Below, in pieces: positions 10,254-46,832 of a stretch of 64,000 bases of DNA. The stretch comes from Methylocystis sp. H62 (lineage in GTDB: Bacteria > Pseudomonadota > Alphaproteobacteria > Rhizobiales > Beijerinckiaceae). Below the pieces are notes generated by a model that did not search any database, had not been told where the DNA came from, and saw nothing but the letters and a program-made list of their open reading frames with translations. Positions within the stretch are counted from its first letter, which is position 1, and each line of letters starts with the position of its first letter. Location of the stretch: positions 248,001 to 312,000 of the forward strand of contig NZ_JADNQZ010000058.1 of NCBI RefSeq assembly GCF_015709515.1, written 5' to 3'. Position numbers and translations under genes: made by a program.

Positions 10254-12164
10254 CTACCCCCGGCTGGCGAGAAGCGCCGTCAGTCTTTTCGCGAAAGCCG
10301 CTGCGTCGATGGGATGCTCGCCGTCGGCGACGCGGGCGAGATCGAGCAGCAGGAACTGCTCGTCGCGCGCCGCTTCACGCCCCTTTGCGCGCAACGCCGT
10401 CGCCAGCGCAACGATCGCTTCATGCCTCGGGTTGATCTCCAAAACCGGCTTTCCGAAGGCCGCCTGTTGTCCATGTTCGGCCAGAAGGCGGGACAATTGG
10501 CGATCGAGCCCGCTGTCGGGAGCGACGAGGCAGACGGCGCTGTCTGTCAGACGCGTCGAGGCGCGCACGTCGTCCACATATTCGGCAAGCGTCTCCTTGA
10601 GGGCCGCCAGCAGGTCGGCGACGTCGGCCGGCGGCGTCGCCTCCGTCTTGGCGTCCTCGACGAGCGCGATCGAATCGATGTCGGCCTGGCCCTGCGTGAC
10701 GGATTTGAACGGCTTGCCTTCGTAGCCGAGCGCGCTCGTCACCCAGAAGGCGTCGACGGCGTCGTCGAGAAGCAGCACTTCGACGCCCCTCGCGCGGAAT
10801 CCTTCAAGCTGCGGGCTGGCGCGCAGCCGCTTCATATCGTCGCCGACGAGATAATAAATCGCCGTCTGATTTTCCCTCAGATCGGCGACGTAATCCTTGA
10901 GCGTGCGGGTCTGTTCCTCGGATTTCGTCGAGGCGAATCGCGCAATTTCGAACAGAGCGTCACGGCGGCTCGGGTCTTCATGCAGCCCTTCCTTGAGCAC
11001 GGAGCCGAAGTTCTTCCACACGTCCGCGAATTTTTCGGGCTCGGCGTCGGCGAGCTTCTTGAGTTCCTGCAAAATGCGGGTCGCGATGGCCTTGCCGATC
11101 GCGCCGGCGACCGGGCTTTTCTGCACCATCTCGCGCGAGACATTGAGCGGAATGTCGGCGCTGTCGACGACGATTCGCATAAACCGCAGCCAGGCGGGCA
11201 GCAGCTCCATGTCGCGCGAGATCAGCACGCGGCGCACATACAGCTTGGATTTGCTCTTTCGCGCCGGGTCGAAGAGATCGAAGGGCCGCGCCCCAGGAAC
11301 GAAGGCGAGCACCGTATATTCGGTGCGTCCTTCGGCGCGCCAGTGGGCGATCAGCGCGGGCTCGTCCAGCTGACCGGACAATTGCCGGTAAAAGTCGACA
11401 TATTGCTCATGCGTGATGTCGGACTTGGGCTTCGTCCACAGGGCGACGCCTTCGGCGATTCGCCGAGGCTCTTCGCCCGGCGCCGCGATGAGATCAATCG
11501 GCGCGGCGATCGCGCCCGAGTGCTCGCACACCACGCTTTCAACCCGCGAGCCGTCGAGAAATTCATCGCTGTCGGCGTTGAGATGCAGCGTGACGCGGGC
11601 GCCGACGGCGGGCGCCTCTTCGAGCGGCAGAGCCGCGATCTGATAGGAGCCCTTGCCGTCTGAACGCCACAGCCAGGCCAGATCCTCGCCGGCGCGCCGC
11701 GTCGCGACCTCGACGTGGTCGGCGACCATGAAGGCGGAATAGAAGCCGACGCCGAACTGGCCGATGAAGCCGGCGTCCTTCTCCTTCCCGAGTTTGTCGA
11801 GAAAGGCGCGCGTGCCCGAATTGGCGATGGTGCCGAGGGCGCTGATCAGCTCCTCGCGCGACATGCCGACGCCATTGTCGGCGACGGTCAGCGTGCGCTT
11901 CTCCTGATCGAGTGAAATCGTAACGAGCGGCGCGGCGGCTTGCGTGGCGAGTTTTTCGTCGGAAAGCGCCTCGTAACGCAGCTTTTCGCAGGCGTCGGCG
12001 GCGTTCGAGACGAGTTCGCGCAGAAAGACGTCGCGCTCCGAATAGACGGAATGCGTCATCATCTCGAGCAGCCGCGCGACGTCGGCCTCAAAACCGAAAT
12101 TGGCGGCGGGTTGCGGATCGGCGGCGGGAGCCGCCGCGTCGACGGATGCGGCGTCGTCGGTCAT
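10254..12164 (-). CDS. htpG: Molecular chaperone HtpG (Hsp90)
   Basis: Bacterial Hsp90, a dimeric ATP-dependent chaperone. The 636-residue product starts MTDDAASVDAAAP, with a GGAGAG Shine-Dalgarno sequence six bases upstream of the ATG at 12164. An open frame continues 135 codons further upstream but gives no conserved sequence. GHKL ATPase motifs are ELVSNAADACEKLR (the essential Glu and Asn), DNGVGM and GQFGVGFYSAFMVAD. Middle and C-terminal domains are complete. The Shine-Dalgarno sequence may be hidden in a leader hairpin. Confidence 0.97.
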   Translation of the reverse strand: MTDDAASVDAAAPAADPQPAANFGFEADVARLLEMMTHSVYSERDVFLRELVSNAADACEKLRYEALSDEKLATQAAAPLVTISLDQEKRTLTVADNGVGMSREELISALGTIANSGTRAFLDKLGKEKDAGFIGQFGVGFYSAFMVADHVEVATRRAGEDLAWLWRSDGKGSYQIAALPLEEAPAVGARVTLHLNADSDEFLDGSRVESVVCEHSGAIAAPIDLIAAPGEEPRRIAEGVALWTKPKSDITHEQYVDFYRQLSGQLDEPALIAHWRAEGRTEYTVLAFVPGARPFDLFDPARKSKSKLYVRRVLISRDMELLPAWLRFMRIVVDSADIPLNVSREMVQKSPVAGAIGKAIATRILQELKKLADAEPEKFADVWKNFGSVLKEGLHEDPSRRDALFEIARFASTKSEEQTRTLKDYVADLRENQTAIYYLVGDDMKRLRASPQLEGFRARGVEVLLLDDAVDAFWVTSALGYEGKPFKSVTQGQADIDSIALVEDAKTEATPPADVADLLAALKETLAEYVDDVRASTRLTDSAVCLVAPDSGLDRQLSRLLAEHGQQAAFGKPVLEINPRHEAIVALATALRAKGREAARDEQFLLLDLARVADGEHPIDAAAFAKRLTALLASRG

Positions 12165-12165
12165 G

Positions 12166-12211
12166 TTCTCTCCAATGAATACAAAAAGAGAAGGGGCGTC
12201 GCGGGCGACGC
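12166..12211 (-). promoter_or_regulatory. htpG leader with hairpin over the ribosome binding site
   Basis: On the minus strand the Shine-Dalgarno sequence of htpG (bases 12168-12173) lies in a 6-bp stem, TTCTCT with AGAGAA (12187-12192 and 12166-12171), enclosing a 15-base AT-rich loop. Just upstream is a GC-rich hairpin (12196-12201 with 12206-12211). Masking of a heat-shock gene's ribosome binding site by a weak stem is how RNA thermometers work; function here is inference. Confidence 0.35.
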
Positions 12212-39049: not shown

Positions 39050-41365
<2,316 letters not shown>

Positions 41366-41513: not shown

Positions 41514-42161
41514 TCACACCGCGCGCGTGCCGGGCGTCTCATCCTTCCGATAGGCGGTGCCGAACACATAGTCCCACCAGATCGCGTGAACGCCGAAGCC
41601 TTTCTCGGCGTCGCGGAAATGATGCAGCATGTGCAGGCGTTTCACCATGCGGGCGAACTCGGATTTCGGCTGCCCGTGATGCGTCCAGTAGTGCACGCAA
41701 TCATAGATCACATAGCCCGTGATGAAGCCGGCCAGCGCCGGCCACGCGAAGGTCGCGCCAAAGAGCACGCGGGCGCAGACGAGCGCGATCAGCATGATCG
41801 GCGCCGAGAGCAGCGGCGGCATGACGAGCCGCAGCGGGTCGTTGGGATAGATGTGATGCACGCCGTGGATGAGGAACTGGAAGCGCGGCCCCAGCCCGAA
41901 CGGCAACGCGAACACGGTATGAAAGAGATAGCGATGGCCAAAATATTCGGTCAGCGTCCAGCCCAGATAGCCGACGACAAGACCCAATACGACGAGCGTC
42001 GGACTGTTGAACGTGAGCGAATAGATCACCAGGCCGAGAATGATCGGGCAATAGACGATCACCGGCGTCAAATGATGCACCCGCGACAGTTTGTCGAGAA
42101 GATCGCTCTCGAAGAGGCGGGGCGAAGCGTCGAGCGCTTCCGTTCTTACGTCCTGCGTCAT
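41514..42161 (-). CDS. Fatty acid 2-hydroxylase-like di-iron membrane enzyme
   Basis: A 215-residue protein of the fatty acid hydroxylase/sterol desaturase superfamily. Four membrane spans and the full histidine set: GHRYLFH, LIHGVHHIYP, CVHYWTHHG and RLHMLHHFRD. The context HGVHHIYPNDPLRLVMPP and the ending GFGVHAIWWDYVFGT resemble eukaryotic FA2H/Scs7 more than sterol enzymes. Those enzymes 2-hydroxylate the N-acyl chain of sphingolipids. It is the last gene of the cluster, starting three bases after the desaturase stop with GGAG upstream. Assignment to ceramide hydroxylation rests on family resemblance and context. Confidence 0.8.
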   Translation of the reverse strand: MTQDVRTEALDASPRLFESDLLDKLSRVHHLTPVIVYCPIILGLVIYSLTFNSPTLVVLGLVVGYLGWTLTEYFGHRYLFHTVFALPFGLGPRFQFLIHGVHHIYPNDPLRLVMPPLLSAPIMLIALVCARVLFGATFAWPALAGFITGYVIYDCVHYWTHHGQPKSEFARMVKRLHMLHHFRDAEKGFGVHAIWWDYVFGTAYRKDETPGTRAV

Positions 42162-42164
42162 GAC

Positions 42165-43160
42165 TTACTCCGCCGGCGCGACGACAGGCTCTACGCGCTC
42201 CGCCGCCTGCGTGACATTTTCCGACCGCGTGCCGAGCGAATAGGTCGGATCGAAGATGAAGGTGACGAGCAGCGCCGTCCAGGAACGATGGCATCGCAGA
42301 TCGTCATAGAACTCCGGCGCCATCGCCTTCAGCTGAGGCAAACGATTCCACGGGATCTCGTGAAAATCGTGGTGTTCGTTGTGATAGCCGATGTTGAGCG
42401 CGAGCGTGTTGAGCGGCCCGTAATAGTCGAACGTCCCCTGGTCGGGGCCGAAGGCGAAATGCTCCTGCAGCCAGCGGGCGCTCAATGGATGCAGGCCGCC
42501 AACCGAGAACCAGAAGGAGAAGAAGAGATAGAGCAGCGCGTTCGGCCCGAACGCCCAGAGCACGAGAAGATCGAAGACGGCGATGACGGCGATATTGATA
42601 TAGGTCCAGGTTCCCAAGATCGGCACCGTGCCTTTCAGACGCGACAGGCGCGCAAGCTGAATGACCGGGAAGAAGAAGAGCCAGACCGCCTTGCGCCAGC
42701 CGCTATTGCCGACCCATTCGACCTCCCAGCGGCTCGGAATGTCGGCGTCATAGTCATAGGCCGACAGATGCGAATGATGCTTGATGTGATAGCAGCGAAA
42801 GCCCATCGCCGTCGGAAAGGCGTTGGAAAGATCGGCGAGGATCGCCGTCCACTTGTTGGCGAGCGGGCTCTCGAAGACGCAATTGTGGATCGCGTCGTGG
42901 ATGATAACGAAATTGGCGTGATTGGCGAAGGCGCCGACGCAGATCGCCATCAAGAGCGACAGCCACCAATAGGAAAGGCCGAGCGAACCCAAGATCGCGG
43001 CGATGACGAACTGACCGACGAAAATCGCCGCCGTGATCTTGAAGGTCACCGGGTCCTTGCCGAAGAGTTCGCGCACCTTCGGATATTTTTCGAGGATCAG
43101 CTTGCGCCGCTCGACATGCGAGCGGTCGGCGCCATTGGCGGTGACGGATATGCCATTCAT
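42165..43160 (-). CDS. DEGS-like sphingolipid (dihydroceramide) desaturase
   Basis: A 331-residue membrane desaturase. Three histidine boxes: HDAIHN, HIKHHSHL and GYHNEHHDFHEIP. The last, with YYGPLNTLALNIGYHNEHHDF and WNRLPQLKAMAPEFYDDL around it, closely follows eukaryotic sphingolipid Delta-4 desaturases (DEGS/DES). The N-terminus is a short charged segment (ERRKLILEKYPKVRELFG) also like that family. The ATG overlaps the stop of the acyltransferase gene (ATGA). Expected product: a Delta-4 double bond in the long-chain base; the regiochemistry is inference. Confidence 0.82.
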   Translation of the reverse strand: MNGISVTANGADRSHVERRKLILEKYPKVRELFGKDPVTFKITAAIFVGQFVIAAILGSLGLSYWWLSLLMAICVGAFANHANFVIIHDAIHNCVFESPLANKWTAILADLSNAFPTAMGFRCYHIKHHSHLSAYDYDADIPSRWEVEWVGNSGWRKAVWLFFFPVIQLARLSRLKGTVPILGTWTYINIAVIAVFDLLVLWAFGPNALLYLFFSFWFSVGGLHPLSARWLQEHFAFGPDQGTFDYYGPLNTLALNIGYHNEHHDFHEIPWNRLPQLKAMAPEFYDDLRCHRSWTALLVTFIFDPTYSLGTRSENVTQAAERVEPVVAPAE

Positions 43161-44371
43161 GACGTTGCATCCTGTAGCTGAGTCGCCCTAACGCCGTCGC
43201 GCATACGCATCGCCTCGCCGCCATCGCCGGCGGTGAGGCGCTTTTCATAGATGCGATGAATCTTGTCGACCTTGCCGCCGAATATTTCGATCGGCCGGCG
43301 CATGTCGGCGTTGCTTTCCAACACCCATCCCGCTTCGAGATGCGGAACGCGGATCTTCGCGTGGCGCCGCCGCATCTCTTCGACCAGCGACAGGAAGATC
43401 GCGCCGCCGGTAGCGCTTTTTTGTAGCGTCTTGCGCGTGCCAAGAAGCAACAGCCGCGCCGATTTGAACTGATGCGAGCGGAAGCGCTTGAACGCGCGCG
43501 CCCAGCCGAAGGGGAACAGGCGTCCGTTGAGATCGGCGAGAATCTCATTGAGATTGGGAAGCGCGATCGCAAAGGACTGCGGAACGCCGTCAAGCTCGAC
43601 GACGATGCCGAAATCCGCCGGCACGAGATATTGCAGCGCGTCGGCGTCGGAGTCGAATTCTTCCTTAGTGAAGGGCACGAAACCCCAATTTCCGCTCCAG
43701 CCGTCGTTGAACAGCTCGGTCATCAGCGCGGTTTCGCCCTGCTTCAAGGCCTTCATGTTCAACGGCCGGAGCTTCAAGCGATCGCGCCATTCGCGCCGCG
43801 TTGAAATCCGCGCCGGCTTGTCGCTCTCGTCGCTCGAAATGTCGAAGCGGTAGGACAAGAGGTCTTGCGCCTTCTCATAGCCCAGCGCCTCGAGATGGCG
43901 CGAGAGATAGGGCGGATGCCAGGGCATGAAAAACATCGGCGTCGCGTCGAAGCCATCGACGAGAAGTCCGCACTCCTTGTTGACCGACGGCGAGAACGGT
44001 CCGTTGATCCGCTCCGCGCCCTTGGCGCGCAGCCAGTCCTCGGCGGCCTGGGTCAGCGCGCGCACGACCTCGACGTCGTCGATGGCGTCGAGCGCGCCGA
44101 ACTGCGCATTGGAGGCGCCGACCGGCGTGACGCTGGGCTTGTAGATCTGCGCCATGATGCGCCCGACCCACTGGCCGTCACGGCGGGCGAGAAATTTCTG
44201 CTCATCGACGAGCTTGTAATGCGGGTTGAGCTTATGCGCGAAGACGCTCCAGCGCTCGATGTCGAGCGGCGGCGCGAAGCCTTCGGCGCCGGCGTAAAGC
44301 AGCCGTGGCAGCCTGCAGAAGGTCGCAAAGCGCAAAGGGCCGTCGACCGGAAGAATCTCGATCCGCGCCAT
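43157..44371 (-). CDS. GNAT-fold acyltransferase, candidate bacterial ceramide synthase
   Basis: A 404-residue cytoplasmic protein. It has the layout of the large GNAT-type N-acyltransferases found beside spt genes, such as the Caulobacter bacterial ceramide synthase. It starts RIEILPVDGPLRFATFCRLPR; later segments include GPFSPSVNKECGLLVDGFD, MFFMPWHPPYL and FNDGWSGNWGFVPFTKEEF. ATG at 44371, with AGGA seven bases upstream; a TTG two codons earlier is unlikely. Position between spt and the desaturase supports N-acylation of the sphingoid base. The function is inferred from context and recalled family resemblance, not shown by a catalytic motif. Confidence 0.72.
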   Translation of the reverse strand: MARIEILPVDGPLRFATFCRLPRLLYAGAEGFAPPLDIERWSVFAHKLNPHYKLVDEQKFLARRDGQWVGRIMAQIYKPSVTPVGASNAQFGALDAIDDVEVVRALTQAAEDWLRAKGAERINGPFSPSVNKECGLLVDGFDATPMFFMPWHPPYLSRHLEALGYEKAQDLLSYRFDISSDESDKPARISTRREWRDRLKLRPLNMKALKQGETALMTELFNDGWSGNWGFVPFTKEEFDSDADALQYLVPADFGIVVELDGVPQSFAIALPNLNEILADLNGRLFPFGWARAFKRFRSHQFKSARLLLLGTRKTLQKSATGGAIFLSLVEEMRRRHAKIRVPHLEAGWVLESNADMRRPIEIFGGKVDKIHRIYEKRLTAGDGGEAMRMRDGVRATQLQDATS

Positions 44372-44437
44372 ATGCAAGTCCTAGCGGCCGCTGGCCTTAA
44401 TCGAAAGCGTCAAAGTGACGCGGATACGGCGAACGGC

Positions 44438-45676
44438 CTATCCGCCGGCCATGGCGGCGGCGACGATCTGATGCGCCTCTTCCGTCACCGGCGGCATGTC
44501 GCGCAGCATCTGGATGACGCCGCGGATTTCCGCTTCGCTGTGGTTCGCGGAGAAGAAGAAGCGCAGCCGCGGCCCGTCCTTCGGCACGCCGATGCGCACG
44601 ACCGGCGGCACGTAATAGCCGTTCTCCAGCAGATGCTGCGACGCCCACATGGTCTCGACGTCGCTCGAGAACAGGATCGGCACGACGCCGCGGCCGATCG
44701 CCGGCCCGGTCGAGAATCCCGCTTCATGCGCCACGGTGCGGAAGAGCTCGGCGTTGTCCGCGAGTTTGGCGATGCGCCAGGTCTCTTCCTGCATCAGCCG
44801 CAGCGCGGTGCGCGCGGCGGCGAGAATGACCGGCGACAGGCCGACGCTGTAGACGAAGCCCGGCAGCGTATAGCGGAACCAGTCGATGACCTGCTTCTTG
44901 CCGCAGACATAGCCGCCGCAGGACGCGAGCGTCTTCGACATGGTGCCGACGATGAGGTCGATGCGCGCCGGATCGACGCCCTGATGTTCGGCGAGGCCGC
45001 GGCCCGTGTCGCCCAACACGCCCAGCGAATGCGCCTCGTCGACAAGCAGCCAGACCTTGTATTTTTCCTTGATGGCCAGGAGCCGCGGCAGGTCCGCGGT
45101 GTCGCCGTCCATGCTGTAGACGCCCTCCACCACGACGAGGACGTTGCGGTATTCCTCGCGGTGGCGCGCAAGCAGATGGTCGAGATGATCCAAGTCGTTG
45201 TGGCGGAATTTTTCGACCTGCGCCGACGCGCCGTCGGCGCCCGCGACGATGCTGTTATGCGCGAGTTCGTCGATGAAGATCGCGTCGCGCTTGCCGCTCA
45301 TCAGCCAGGCGATCGTCGTGACATTGGAGAGATAGCCGGAGACGAGCGTCAGCGCGCTCTCCATGCCCAGAAACTCGGCGATCTCCGCCTCGAACGGCTT
45401 GTGCGTGGTGCGTTCGCCGCCGACAAGCCGCGAAGCCAGCGCGCCGATTCCGAGGCCGTCGATCTCGCGCTTTGCCTCCTCGCGGATCCGCGGGTGATTC
45501 GCGAGCCCGAGATAGTCGTAATTGGCGAAGCTGACGAAGTGCTTGCCCTGCGCCTCGAATTCGGTCCGCAGCCGGTCGATCTGGGCGAAGAACGGATCGC
45601 TGAACTCCAGCAAGGCGTTGCCAGCAAAACGGAATCGCCTTGCCGCGTAATCCTCTAAGCTCTTATGCTTCGTCAC
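44438..45676 (-). CDS. spt: Serine palmitoyltransferase-like alpha-oxoamine synthase
   Basis: A 412-residue PLP enzyme of the AOS family (SPT, KBL, AONS, ALAS). The lysine forming the aldimine is in VGTMSKTLASCGGYVCG; other motifs are FANYDYLGLANHP, LVDEAHSLGVLGDTGRG and the segment ASRLVGGERTTHKPFE. Placement with a ceramide synthase-like enzyme, a DEGS-like desaturase and an FA2H-like hydroxylase makes serine palmitoyltransferase the best call: condensation of serine with a long-chain acyl thioester to 3-ketosphinganine. A GTG start at 45676 is used. A biotin (AONS) role is unlikely because no bio genes adjoin. Confidence 0.78.
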   Translation of the reverse strand: MTKHKSLEDYAARRFRFAGNALLEFSDPFFAQIDRLRTEFEAQGKHFVSFANYDYLGLANHPRIREEAKREIDGLGIGALASRLVGGERTTHKPFEAEIAEFLGMESALTLVSGYLSNVTTIAWLMSGKRDAIFIDELAHNSIVAGADGASAQVEKFRHNDLDHLDHLLARHREEYRNVLVVVEGVYSMDGDTADLPRLLAIKEKYKVWLLVDEAHSLGVLGDTGRGLAEHQGVDPARIDLIVGTMSKTLASCGGYVCGKKQVIDWFRYTLPGFVYSVGLSPVILAAARTALRLMQEETWRIAKLADNAELFRTVAHEAGFSTGPAIGRGVVPILFSSDVETMWASQHLLENGYYVPPVVRIGVPKDGPRLRFFFSANHSEAEIRGVIQMLRDMPPVTEEAHQIVAAAMAGG

Positions 45677-45784: not shown

Positions 45785-46060
45785 GCCAGCGGGCGGCCAG
45801 GGCAGGGGTGGGCGATCGGGCGAAGGATTGTTTTCCTCACCCTCATCCTGAGGAGCCGCCCGCAAGTCGGGTTTACCCGACTTGCGAATTTAATGTCGAT
45901 CTCGGGCAGGCCCGAGATCGAAGGCGGCGTCTCGAAGGACGAGGGTGAAGAAAAATGCACGAAAACGGGCTTCCTCGTCCTTCGAGACGCGCGCTACGCA
46001 CGCTCCTCAGGATGAGGAAGCCCTTCACCCGATCGCCCTGCGGGGCCAGCGGGGCAGGGG
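45785..46060. repeat. Composite palindromic repeat (family C)
   Basis: Two inverted copies of a Rhizobiales-type element: CCTCATCCTGAGGAGC...GTCTCGAAGGACGAGG (45840-45945) and its reverse complement (45972-46019). The first copy carries two perfect internal hairpins: CGCAAGTCGGG/CCCGACTTGCG (45861-45886) and GATCTCGGGC/GCCCGAGATC (45898-45919). Outer flanks GGGCGATCGGGCGAAGG (45811-45827) and CTTCACCCGATCGCCC (46023-46038) are also nearly inverted copies. It fills most of the gap between the divergent spt and ccmA genes. Confidence 0.85.
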
Positions 46061-46154
46061 GGCGCTTGGGGCGCGCGCGGCCGGGGCCATCGCCAAACAC
46101 GCTCTCTGTCCGCCCTGTCTGGCGGAGTCGATCGCAAAGCTCTATGCGGAGCGC

Positions 46155-46832
46155 ATGTCGATCGATGTCCCAGGGCCTGTTCAGCCGCCCGTTCAGCCGC
46201 CCGTCGATGGCGCTTTACGTCTTTGCGTCGATAATCTCGGCGTTTTGCGCGGGGGCAGGCGCGTGCTCGATCACCTGAGCTTTTCGCTCGCCGCCGGGCA
46301 GGCGCTGATCGTGACGGGTCCCAACGGCGCCGGGAAATCGACGCTGCTGCGGGCCTTGGCGGGACTCCTGCCGCGCGCGGGCGGCTCGATCGCTCTCGAA
46401 GGCGGGCCGAGCGACGTCGAACTGCCGCAGCAGGCGCATTACCTTGCCCATAGCGATGGGATGAAGGCGGCGCTGACGGTTGAGGAGAATCTCGATTTCT
46501 GGTCGCGTTATTTGGCCCAGGAGCCTGACCGGCGCAGCCGCACGGTCGGCGCGGCGCTCGGGGTCGTCGGCCTCTCCCATGTCGCCGCCGCGCCGTTCGG
46601 CGTGCTGTCCGCCGGCCAGAAGCGCCGTGCGGCCTTGGCGCGACTTCTCGTCGCCTTCCGGCCGCTCTGGCTCCTCGACGAGCCGCTGACCGCGCTCGAC
46701 CGCGCCTCACGCGAAAAATTCGCGCTCGCCATGAGCGATCATTGCGGCCAAGGGGGATTGATCGTCGCCGCGACGCATGAGCCGCTGGGGCTCGAAGAGG
46801 CGGCGTCGCTTGCCTTGGGCTCCGCCTCGTGA
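46155..46832 (+). CDS. ccmA: Haem exporter ATP-binding protein CcmA
   Basis: ATPase of the CcmABCD complex that releases holo-CcmE for cytochrome c maturation. The 225-residue protein has Walker A VTGPNGAGKSTLLRALAG, signature LSAGQKRRAALARLL, Walker B LWLLDEPLTALD and the H-loop ATHEPLG. ATG at 46155 with GGAG upstream; the frame is open into the upstream repeat but without conservation. The stop overlaps the ccmB GTG start by four bases. It stands 24 kb from the ccmIEFH operon. Confidence 0.95.
   Translation: MSIDVPGPVQPPVQPPVDGALRLCVDNLGVLRGGRRVLDHLSFSLAAGQALIVTGPNGAGKSTLLRALAGLLPRAGGSIALEGGPSDVELPQQAHYLAHSDGMKAALTVEENLDFWSRYLAQEPDRRSRTVGAALGVVGLSHVAAAPFGVLSAGQKRRAALARLLVAFRPLWLLDEPLTALDRASREKFALAMSDHCGQGGLIVAATHEPLGLEEAASLALGSAS

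Follow-up and report, generated by a model that had tools for sequence, protein, structure and literature searches.

A stretch of 64,000 nucleotides from Methylocystis sp. H62 (G000:C58:248001-312000 of a 4.54 Mb genome; hereafter the window) carries a four-gene operon at 41514-45676 that probably encodes the central part of a ceramide pathway, including two tailoring reactions. As predicted from the genes alone, its product is best read as a glycosylated, 2-hydroxylated, Delta4-unsaturated ceramide. The operon encodes an alpha-oxoamine synthase resembling serine palmitoyltransferase (SPT), a tandem-GNAT N-acyltransferase apparently of the bacterial ceramide synthase (bCerS/aca) family, a DEGS-like sphingolipid desaturase and an FA2H/SCS7-like fatty acid (ceramide) 2-hydroxylase, called AOS, GNAT, DES and FAH below. 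A preliminary description of the window had proposed a compact sphingolipid cluster with eukaryote-like tailoring enzymes, a reading that is supported at the sequence level. The double bond and hydroxyl predicted here are modifications that the ceramides of plants, fungi and animals receive; bacterial ceramides are mostly known as dihydroceramides.

Organization and Conservation of the Operon

The listing of open reading frames (ORFs) agrees with the preliminary description in placing four co-oriented genes on the minus strand, where they fill 41514-45676. In 5' to 3' order on that strand, they are AOS (44438-45676; 412 aa, GTG start), GNAT (43157-44371; 404 aa from the ATG at 44371, the longest ORF being 43157-44377 with a TTG start), DES (42165-43160; 331 aa) and FAH (41514-42161; 215 aa). 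AOS is separated by 66 bases from the start of GNAT (the ATG at 44371), GNAT and DES overlap by 4 bases, and DES and FAH are 3 bases apart; the first two values had been described correctly, but the last gap had been given as 4 bases. That the genes form an operon is borne out by this tight packing and by GNAT, DES and FAH being adjacent and co-oriented in all 30 of the short loci compared (the window's own among them). All four genes are also conserved in the relatives read at length (L041-L044; 58-91% identity), and 16 of 20 gene comparisons gave a dN/dS ratio, which ranged over 0.05-0.34; the four with L144 yielded no dS estimate. This conservation in relatives confirms that the four-gene operon is real and not a chance array.

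Counting the own genome, 36 of the 37 genus genomes have DES, the others at 80-98% identity except for two broken fragments; it was not found in G022, a genome of the same genus that is 89% complete. Since the top DES matches among named genomes are Methylocystis records (96-97% identity), the host is a Methylocystis-type type II methanotroph. A foreign origin of the operon received no signal from GC content, which was 62.4% for the operon and 64.0% for the window, with 36 of 240 windows at or below the operon's value.

Desaturase and Hydroxylase

DES scored above the Pfam gathering thresholds for both PF08557 (34.6 against 23 bits) and PF00487 (84.7 against 29.7 bits), in keeping with its earlier description as a DEGS-like desaturase. 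PF08557 was passed by all seven bacterial DES proteins scanned, the window's own included; the desaturase beside a bCerS-like gene in L102, a Sphingomonas-like locus, had no PF08557 match and, being below the thresholds of the hidden Markov model (HMM), is outside the DES tree. Three histidine clusters, which we take to be the histidine boxes (H88, H92; H125, H128, H129; H260, H263, H264), were invariant in 29 DES sequences. Comparison of DES with sequences in the PDB gave no meaningful match, and fold comparison was used instead: the structure model (pLDDT 84.0) matched best to two chains of the FtsHi motor complex (E 5e-5 and 3e-4), and weakly to AlkB and stearoyl-CoA desaturase (E 0.02-0.07). 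An approximate human DEGS1 sequence was 33% identical to the window's DES over 319 aa, 42% to a Saprospiraceae DES over 306, and 23-28% to three other bacterial desaturases. In the tree, the same approximate sequence nested among bacterial DES (99/100 with L203, L210, L213 and L130), a position that carries a warning of long-branch attraction.

Desaturases of this kind are rare in the class: among 385 evenly sampled alphaproteobacterial genomes, a DES match below 1e-80 occurred only in the own genome and in G401, with three more matches that were weak and partial. In G401, the DES gene is convergent with an adjacent GNAT and a hydroxylase of the non-SCS7 type. Viral contigs were also scanned for an algal-virus DES reference, and none of the 56 pattern matches was a relative.

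The regiochemistry predicted for DES is a Delta4 (trans) double bond introduced into dihydroceramide. It is unlikely, though of the alternatives considered this one survives best, that a ceramide is made and DES acts on it as a C4-hydroxylase, or has both activities as in DEGS2, so that phytosphingosine-type ceramides would replace or accompany those with sphingosine. The sequence of DES does not separate a desaturase from a C4-hydroxylase, the fold and PF08557 fit both, and eukaryotic DEGS2 is bifunctional (PMC10140171).

FAH matched yeast SCS7 by phmmer at 2.7e-24 over the hydroxylase domain only, and the HGxHH...RLVMPP stretch of SCS7 is present in it. In a tree of 35 rows, a 100/100 split placed the window protein, relatives from DES clusters of other phyla, L123 and SCS7 on one side, and 14 hydroxylases adjoining bCerS in other alphaproteobacteria on the other; the own genome's two PF04116 paralogues were under the HMM thresholds and so outside this tree. 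The split rules out that the window's FAH is the common alphaproteobacterial hydroxylase found next to bCerS. PF04116 was the only Pfam domain found in FAH. The N-terminal part of SCS7 is a cytochrome b5; no such domain was present in the 215-aa FAH, which aligns only to residues 96-281 (4zr1) and 190-374 (4zr0) of SCS7. Since FAH lies on the same side of the tree as SCS7, it can be assigned to the FA2H type, without the N-terminal domain, and 2-hydroxylation is its predicted regiochemistry. Thus, the SCS7 match and the grouping with SCS7 both uphold the FA2H-like hydroxylase of the preliminary description.

PF04116-type hydroxylases are themselves frequent near bCerS, with matches in 27 of 40 neighbourhoods (L084-L123); all of those included in the tree except L123 constitute a family separate from that of SCS7.

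Acyltransferase and Alpha-Oxoamine Synthase

Neither Pfam nor NCBIfam gave a match for GNAT at E 0.001, and PDB sequences gave no meaningful one; the AlphaFold model of GNAT (pLDDT 82.8) found tandem GNATs as best fold matches (E 1.1e-12). Homologues occurred in 51 other genomes of the 385 in the class, at 31-42% identity bar two weak ones, and of the 52 genomes with a match (own included), neighbourhoods were read in 40 (loci of 7-18 kb). An SPT-like gene was present in 16 of these 40, and the window's GNAT was 33-41% identical (blastp) to the GNATs of the neighbourhoods read, including 35% over 383 aa to that of L102, where an SPT passing the curated cut-off precedes GNAT by four genes. When six neighbourhood SPT-like proteins were compared with NCBIfam, those of L084, L096, L102 and L113 passed an SPT cut-off and those of L090 and L123 did not. 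The gene order of L102, named by eye, is epimerase, acyl carrier protein (ACP), SPT, two LptFG-like genes, desaturase and GNAT, much like that of the Sphingomonas sphingolipid locus in the portion of PMC9386255 describing it. GNAT therefore appears to belong to the bCerS/aca family, a kinship traced through the alphaproteobacterial GNATs that neighbour SPT; the likeness to a bacterial ceramide synthase noted earlier agrees with this.

For AOS, the best solved-structure matches were SPTs (1.3e-61). K248, H140, D213, H216 and R372 were conserved across all groups compared, and presumably serve as the pyridoxal phosphate (PLP) lysine (K248), the stacking residue (H140), the D213/H216 pair and the carboxylate-binding residue (R372). 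Phylogenetic analysis of 47 proteins put AOS in a clade of its own (100/99) with Methylocystis, other Beijerinckiaceae-type loci, L090, L211 and L216, apart from canonical SPT (100/100), ALAS, BioF, KBL and a verrucomicrobial clade. Four of the 11 proteins designated canonical SPT (L084, L096, L102 and L113) were compared with NCBIfam, and all pass a cut-off, while the other seven carry that name by kinship; the KBL reference L230 is absent from the tree because no matching ORF was kept. Topology tests did not reject the window clade constrained with SPT (p 0.27) or with SPT and the verrucomicrobial clade together (p 0.375), and rejected it with KBL (p 0.0031). The preliminary description had considered that the PLP enzyme might group with AONS/KBL; it stands instead in its own clade, and the KBL grouping is rejected, yet SPT is not proven. 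Its wording as SPT-like is sustained by the intact catalytic residues and the closest structures, but AOS is not a curated SPT and does not share the SPT clade. Serine is the probable substrate.

The own genome also holds two copies of 5-aminolevulinate synthase (L079 and L080), both over the curated cut-off.

Companion Cluster and Candidate Pathway Partners

On the same contig, 21.6 kb past the right end of the window, a companion cluster (G000:C58, ~333.6-339.3 kb) comprises an ACP, a FabF-like ketosynthase, two small proteins, a short-chain dehydrogenase/reductase (SDR; G000:C58:336017-336871), and GT21 and GT2 glycosyltransferases. The small-protein pair is dehydratase-like, one being MaoC-like and the other without a family match. 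Ten of the 28 loci L137-L164 have this series next to DES (L145, L148, L155-L160, L162 and L164; 36-79% identity); nine of the ten also show AOS and GNAT, L162 starting at DES. L155 is truncated, without ketosynthase and ACP; L148 has an extra SDR-like ORF within the series. Of the ten, L145 and L148 are the only ones with GT21, which in L151 adjoins DES without the rest of the series. Relatives of the companion SDR also adjoin AOS in L131 and GNAT in L123. In a set of 61 genomes, 36 of the 37 from the genus had both the SDR (E <1e-60) and DES (E <1e-100). G022 had neither, which may reflect loss of the whole pathway or the incompleteness of that genome. None of the 24 genomes outside the genus had the SDR at the 1e-60 level, two had it at 1e-47 to 1e-54, and one, G055, has DES. 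Considering its linkage to DES, AOS and GNAT in relatives and its co-occurrence with DES, the companion SDR is the best candidate for ketone reduction, although it could equally serve acyl-chain synthesis together with the ketosynthase.

Searching the window by tblastn with 11 queries (the companion proteins, two CerR-like epimerases, a second ACP and one AMP-ligase) returned no relative at E 1e-3, while all four operon proteins were recovered as a control. The pathway partners are thus absent from the window, as had been stated, with the correction that a candidate ACP and reductase lie 22 kb outside it. The genome search for cerR and acp that had been proposed succeeded in part: an ACP is present in the companion cluster, but no CerR was recognised.

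PF13506 (GT21) presumably includes ceramide glucosyltransferases. A match to this model alone was not accepted as identifying one, since it also matches 11 of 14 controls. The two strongest GT21-like proteins of the genome score under the 310-bit cut-off of the hopanoid glycosyltransferase model HpnI, one at 188 bits and the other at 155. They are L217 and L218; L218 is the companion-cluster protein, and L217 may be the hopanoid enzyme.

The operon itself is flanked by two ORFs on the opposite, plus strand, named by eye as NAD-dependent DNA ligase-like (39062-41365) and ABC transporter-like (45945-46832).

The Same Gene Families in Other Bacteria

Counts of loci by phylum refer to the best 80 of at least 554 DES relatives, many of them on short contigs of metagenome-assembled genomes (MAGs). 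AOS was present in 51 of these 80 loci, GNAT in 44 and FAH in 39, and all three together in 32, spread over four phyla; where at least 5 kb was available on both sides, all three families were present in 23 of 49. Verrucomicrobial loci have the order DES-FAH-AOS-gap-GNAT, and in L167 the gap between AOS and GNAT holds a CDP-alcohol phosphatidyltransferase (11265-12191). The Acidobacteria MAG locus L185 has what by eye looks like a similar CDP-alcohol transferase (11058-12077), although single MAG loci such as this may be misbinned. A CDP-alcohol phosphatidyltransferase between AOS and GNAT suggests a phospho-alcohol head group in those clusters. In the Saprospiraceae MAG locus L197 (6814-15353), a CDP-alcohol transferase, DES, FAH, a PAP2 enzyme, SPT, GNAT, an epimerase and an inositol-phosphate synthase follow one another in this order. 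The SPT of L197 is over the curated cut-off (681 of 640), and its PAP2 protein resembles phosphoinositol dihydroceramide synthase (276, below the cut-off of 480), so that L197 is apparently an inositol-phosphoceramide cluster including DES and FA2H-like genes. Three lineages of AOS thus stand beside the DES set, namely the window clade, the verrucomicrobial clade and the curated SPT of L197; they form separate groups in the tree, and a single origin was not rejected.

Evidence Against a Ceramide Pathway and Alternative Products

Several results weigh against a ceramide pathway. AOS stayed under all three NCBIfam SPT cut-offs (NF047599, 291 of 500 bits; NF047600, 276 of 640; NF047603, 211 of 670), and its best curated model, bioF, was also below cut-off (341 of 426 bits), leaving it no curated identity. 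Grouping of the window clade with BioF was not rejected (p 0.111). Of the 26 columns specific to SPT this clade shares 4, as against 4 of 9 for BioF (together with 5 of 68 for KBL and 12 of 124 for ALAS; the verrucomicrobial clade shares 5 of 26 SPT columns), an analysis that is not helpful here and does not favour SPT. A CerR orthologue was not recognised in the own genome with the L102 epimerase as query, which gave five partial matches (32-39% over 105-197 of 298 residues); the three best CerR-like matches were 32-35% identical over ~195 of 298 residues, and none was over an NCBIfam cut-off. Since CerR candidates were only partial matches reaching no cut-off, the companion SDR was preferred to CerR as the reductase. 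Among the best 80 DES loci, just one of 20 from Bacteroidota (L197) carries any of AOS, GNAT and FAH, the other 19 having none, and none of the three was found in the Ignavibacteriales locus or in either Phreatobacteraceae locus. FAH relatives were present in one of the 12 best-80 loci labelled Beijerinckiaceae, from which it follows that the hydroxylase is not an obligate partner.

The position of AOS outside the curated SPT families, in its own clade, would also suit an enzyme that uses alanine or glycine, so that DES and FAH would tailor a 1-deoxy-type N-acyl lipid; 1-deoxyceramides have been reported from the Black Sea (PMC11334938). We regard this as quite improbable, since the companion GT21 (PF13506) and GT2 would need a C1 hydroxyl, and the CDP-alcohol transferase in the verrucomicrobial cluster L167 also speaks against it. 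Least credible is some other lipid-modification operon, in which AOS would form a non-sphingoid amino ketone and DES and FAH would act on ordinary fatty acids or hopanoid-linked lipids: AOS reaches no SPT cut-off and the two strongest GT21-like proteins show the sub-threshold resemblance to the hopanoid model HpnI, but PF08557 on DES, the kinship of FAH with FA2H/SCS7 and of GNAT with bCerS, and the same families around the curated SPT of L197 all argue against it.

Proposed Pathway and Relation to Known Systems

In the ceramide pathway that we favour, AOS would condense L-serine with an acyl thioester, probably carried on the companion-cluster ACP, and so form a 3-keto sphingoid base whose ketone the companion SDR would reduce. 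The tandem GNAT would then place an acyl chain on the amine, DES would introduce the Delta4 (trans) double bond, FAH would hydroxylate C2 of the N-acyl chain, and GT21/GT2 of the companion cluster would add a sugar to the C1 hydroxyl. This order of steps is tentative; for Caulobacter, N-acylation has been proposed to precede reduction, and CerR is periplasmic (PMC11087976).

Bacterial SPT/bCerS pathways are already known, as are functional FA2H-like enzymes in myxobacteria. The pathway of Caulobacter and Sphingomonas (SPT, bCerS/aca, CerR/epi, acpR and aasR), as far as covered by portions of PMC9386255 and PMC11087976, shares with the Methylocystis genes an alpha-oxoamine synthase, an N-acyltransferase of the same family and a dedicated ACP. 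However, the Methylocystis AOS is in a separate clade, an SDR stands in place of a recognised CerR, and the operon adds a DEGS-like desaturase and an FA2H-like hydroxylase. A term search found neither 'desatur' nor 'hydroxylase' in the main text of PMC9386255 and PMC11087976, and 'desatur' was likewise absent from PMC11334938, which deals with bacterial sphingolipids. The inositol lipid and sphingolipid pathways of Bacteroidota, the subject of PMC9246714, resemble L197 in having SPT, GNAT, epimerase, PAP2 enzyme and inositol-phosphate synthase; L197 differs from them in adding DES and FAH, and the Methylocystis operon in having no adjoining inositol-lipid genes.

Eukaryotic DEGS1 and FA2H/SCS7 belong to the same families as DES (PF08557/PF00487) and FAH (SCS7 match). 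In eukaryotes, N-acylation is carried out by a LAG1-type ceramide synthase, whereas the bacterial genes form an operon in which a GNAT would perform this step and FAH is without the N-terminal part of SCS7. Ring et al. reportedly tied myxobacterial FA2H homologues to sphingolipid formation in 2009. Functional FA2H-like hydroxylases of this kind are described for myxobacteria in PMC10002949, and the portion of that account available mentions no DEGS-like gene; a bacterial FA2H-like hydroxylase is what those systems and the Methylocystis operon share. Among the best matches in the open-access literature, no title or opening of an abstract dealt with a DEGS-like enzyme from bacteria; neither an operon combining such a gene with bCerS and FA2H nor sphingolipid genes of methanotrophs came to light, although subscription papers are mostly uncovered by such a search, so this is no proof of novelty.

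A wider proposal, which we advance tentatively and consider rather doubtful as a whole, is that a common bacterial module of DES, FA2H and bCerS, set on at least three AOS lineages, enables type II methanotrophs and a number of other phyla of soil and water to form ceramides that are 2-hydroxylated, Delta4-unsaturated and either glycosylated or phospho-headed. On this view, DEGS and FA2H of eukaryotes would stem from these bacterial enzymes or from a source common to both. Because the genus has cultured strains, a compact operon and a linked cluster of ACP, SDR and glycosyltransferases, it makes bacterial sphingosine-type ceramides directly testable. The same system makes it possible to test which enzyme replaces CerR and whether the eukaryotic tailoring enzymes are related by descent to bacterial ones. 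If the proposal is true, neither sphingosine nor 2-hydroxy ceramides from soil or sediment could be taken uncritically as markers of eukaryotes.

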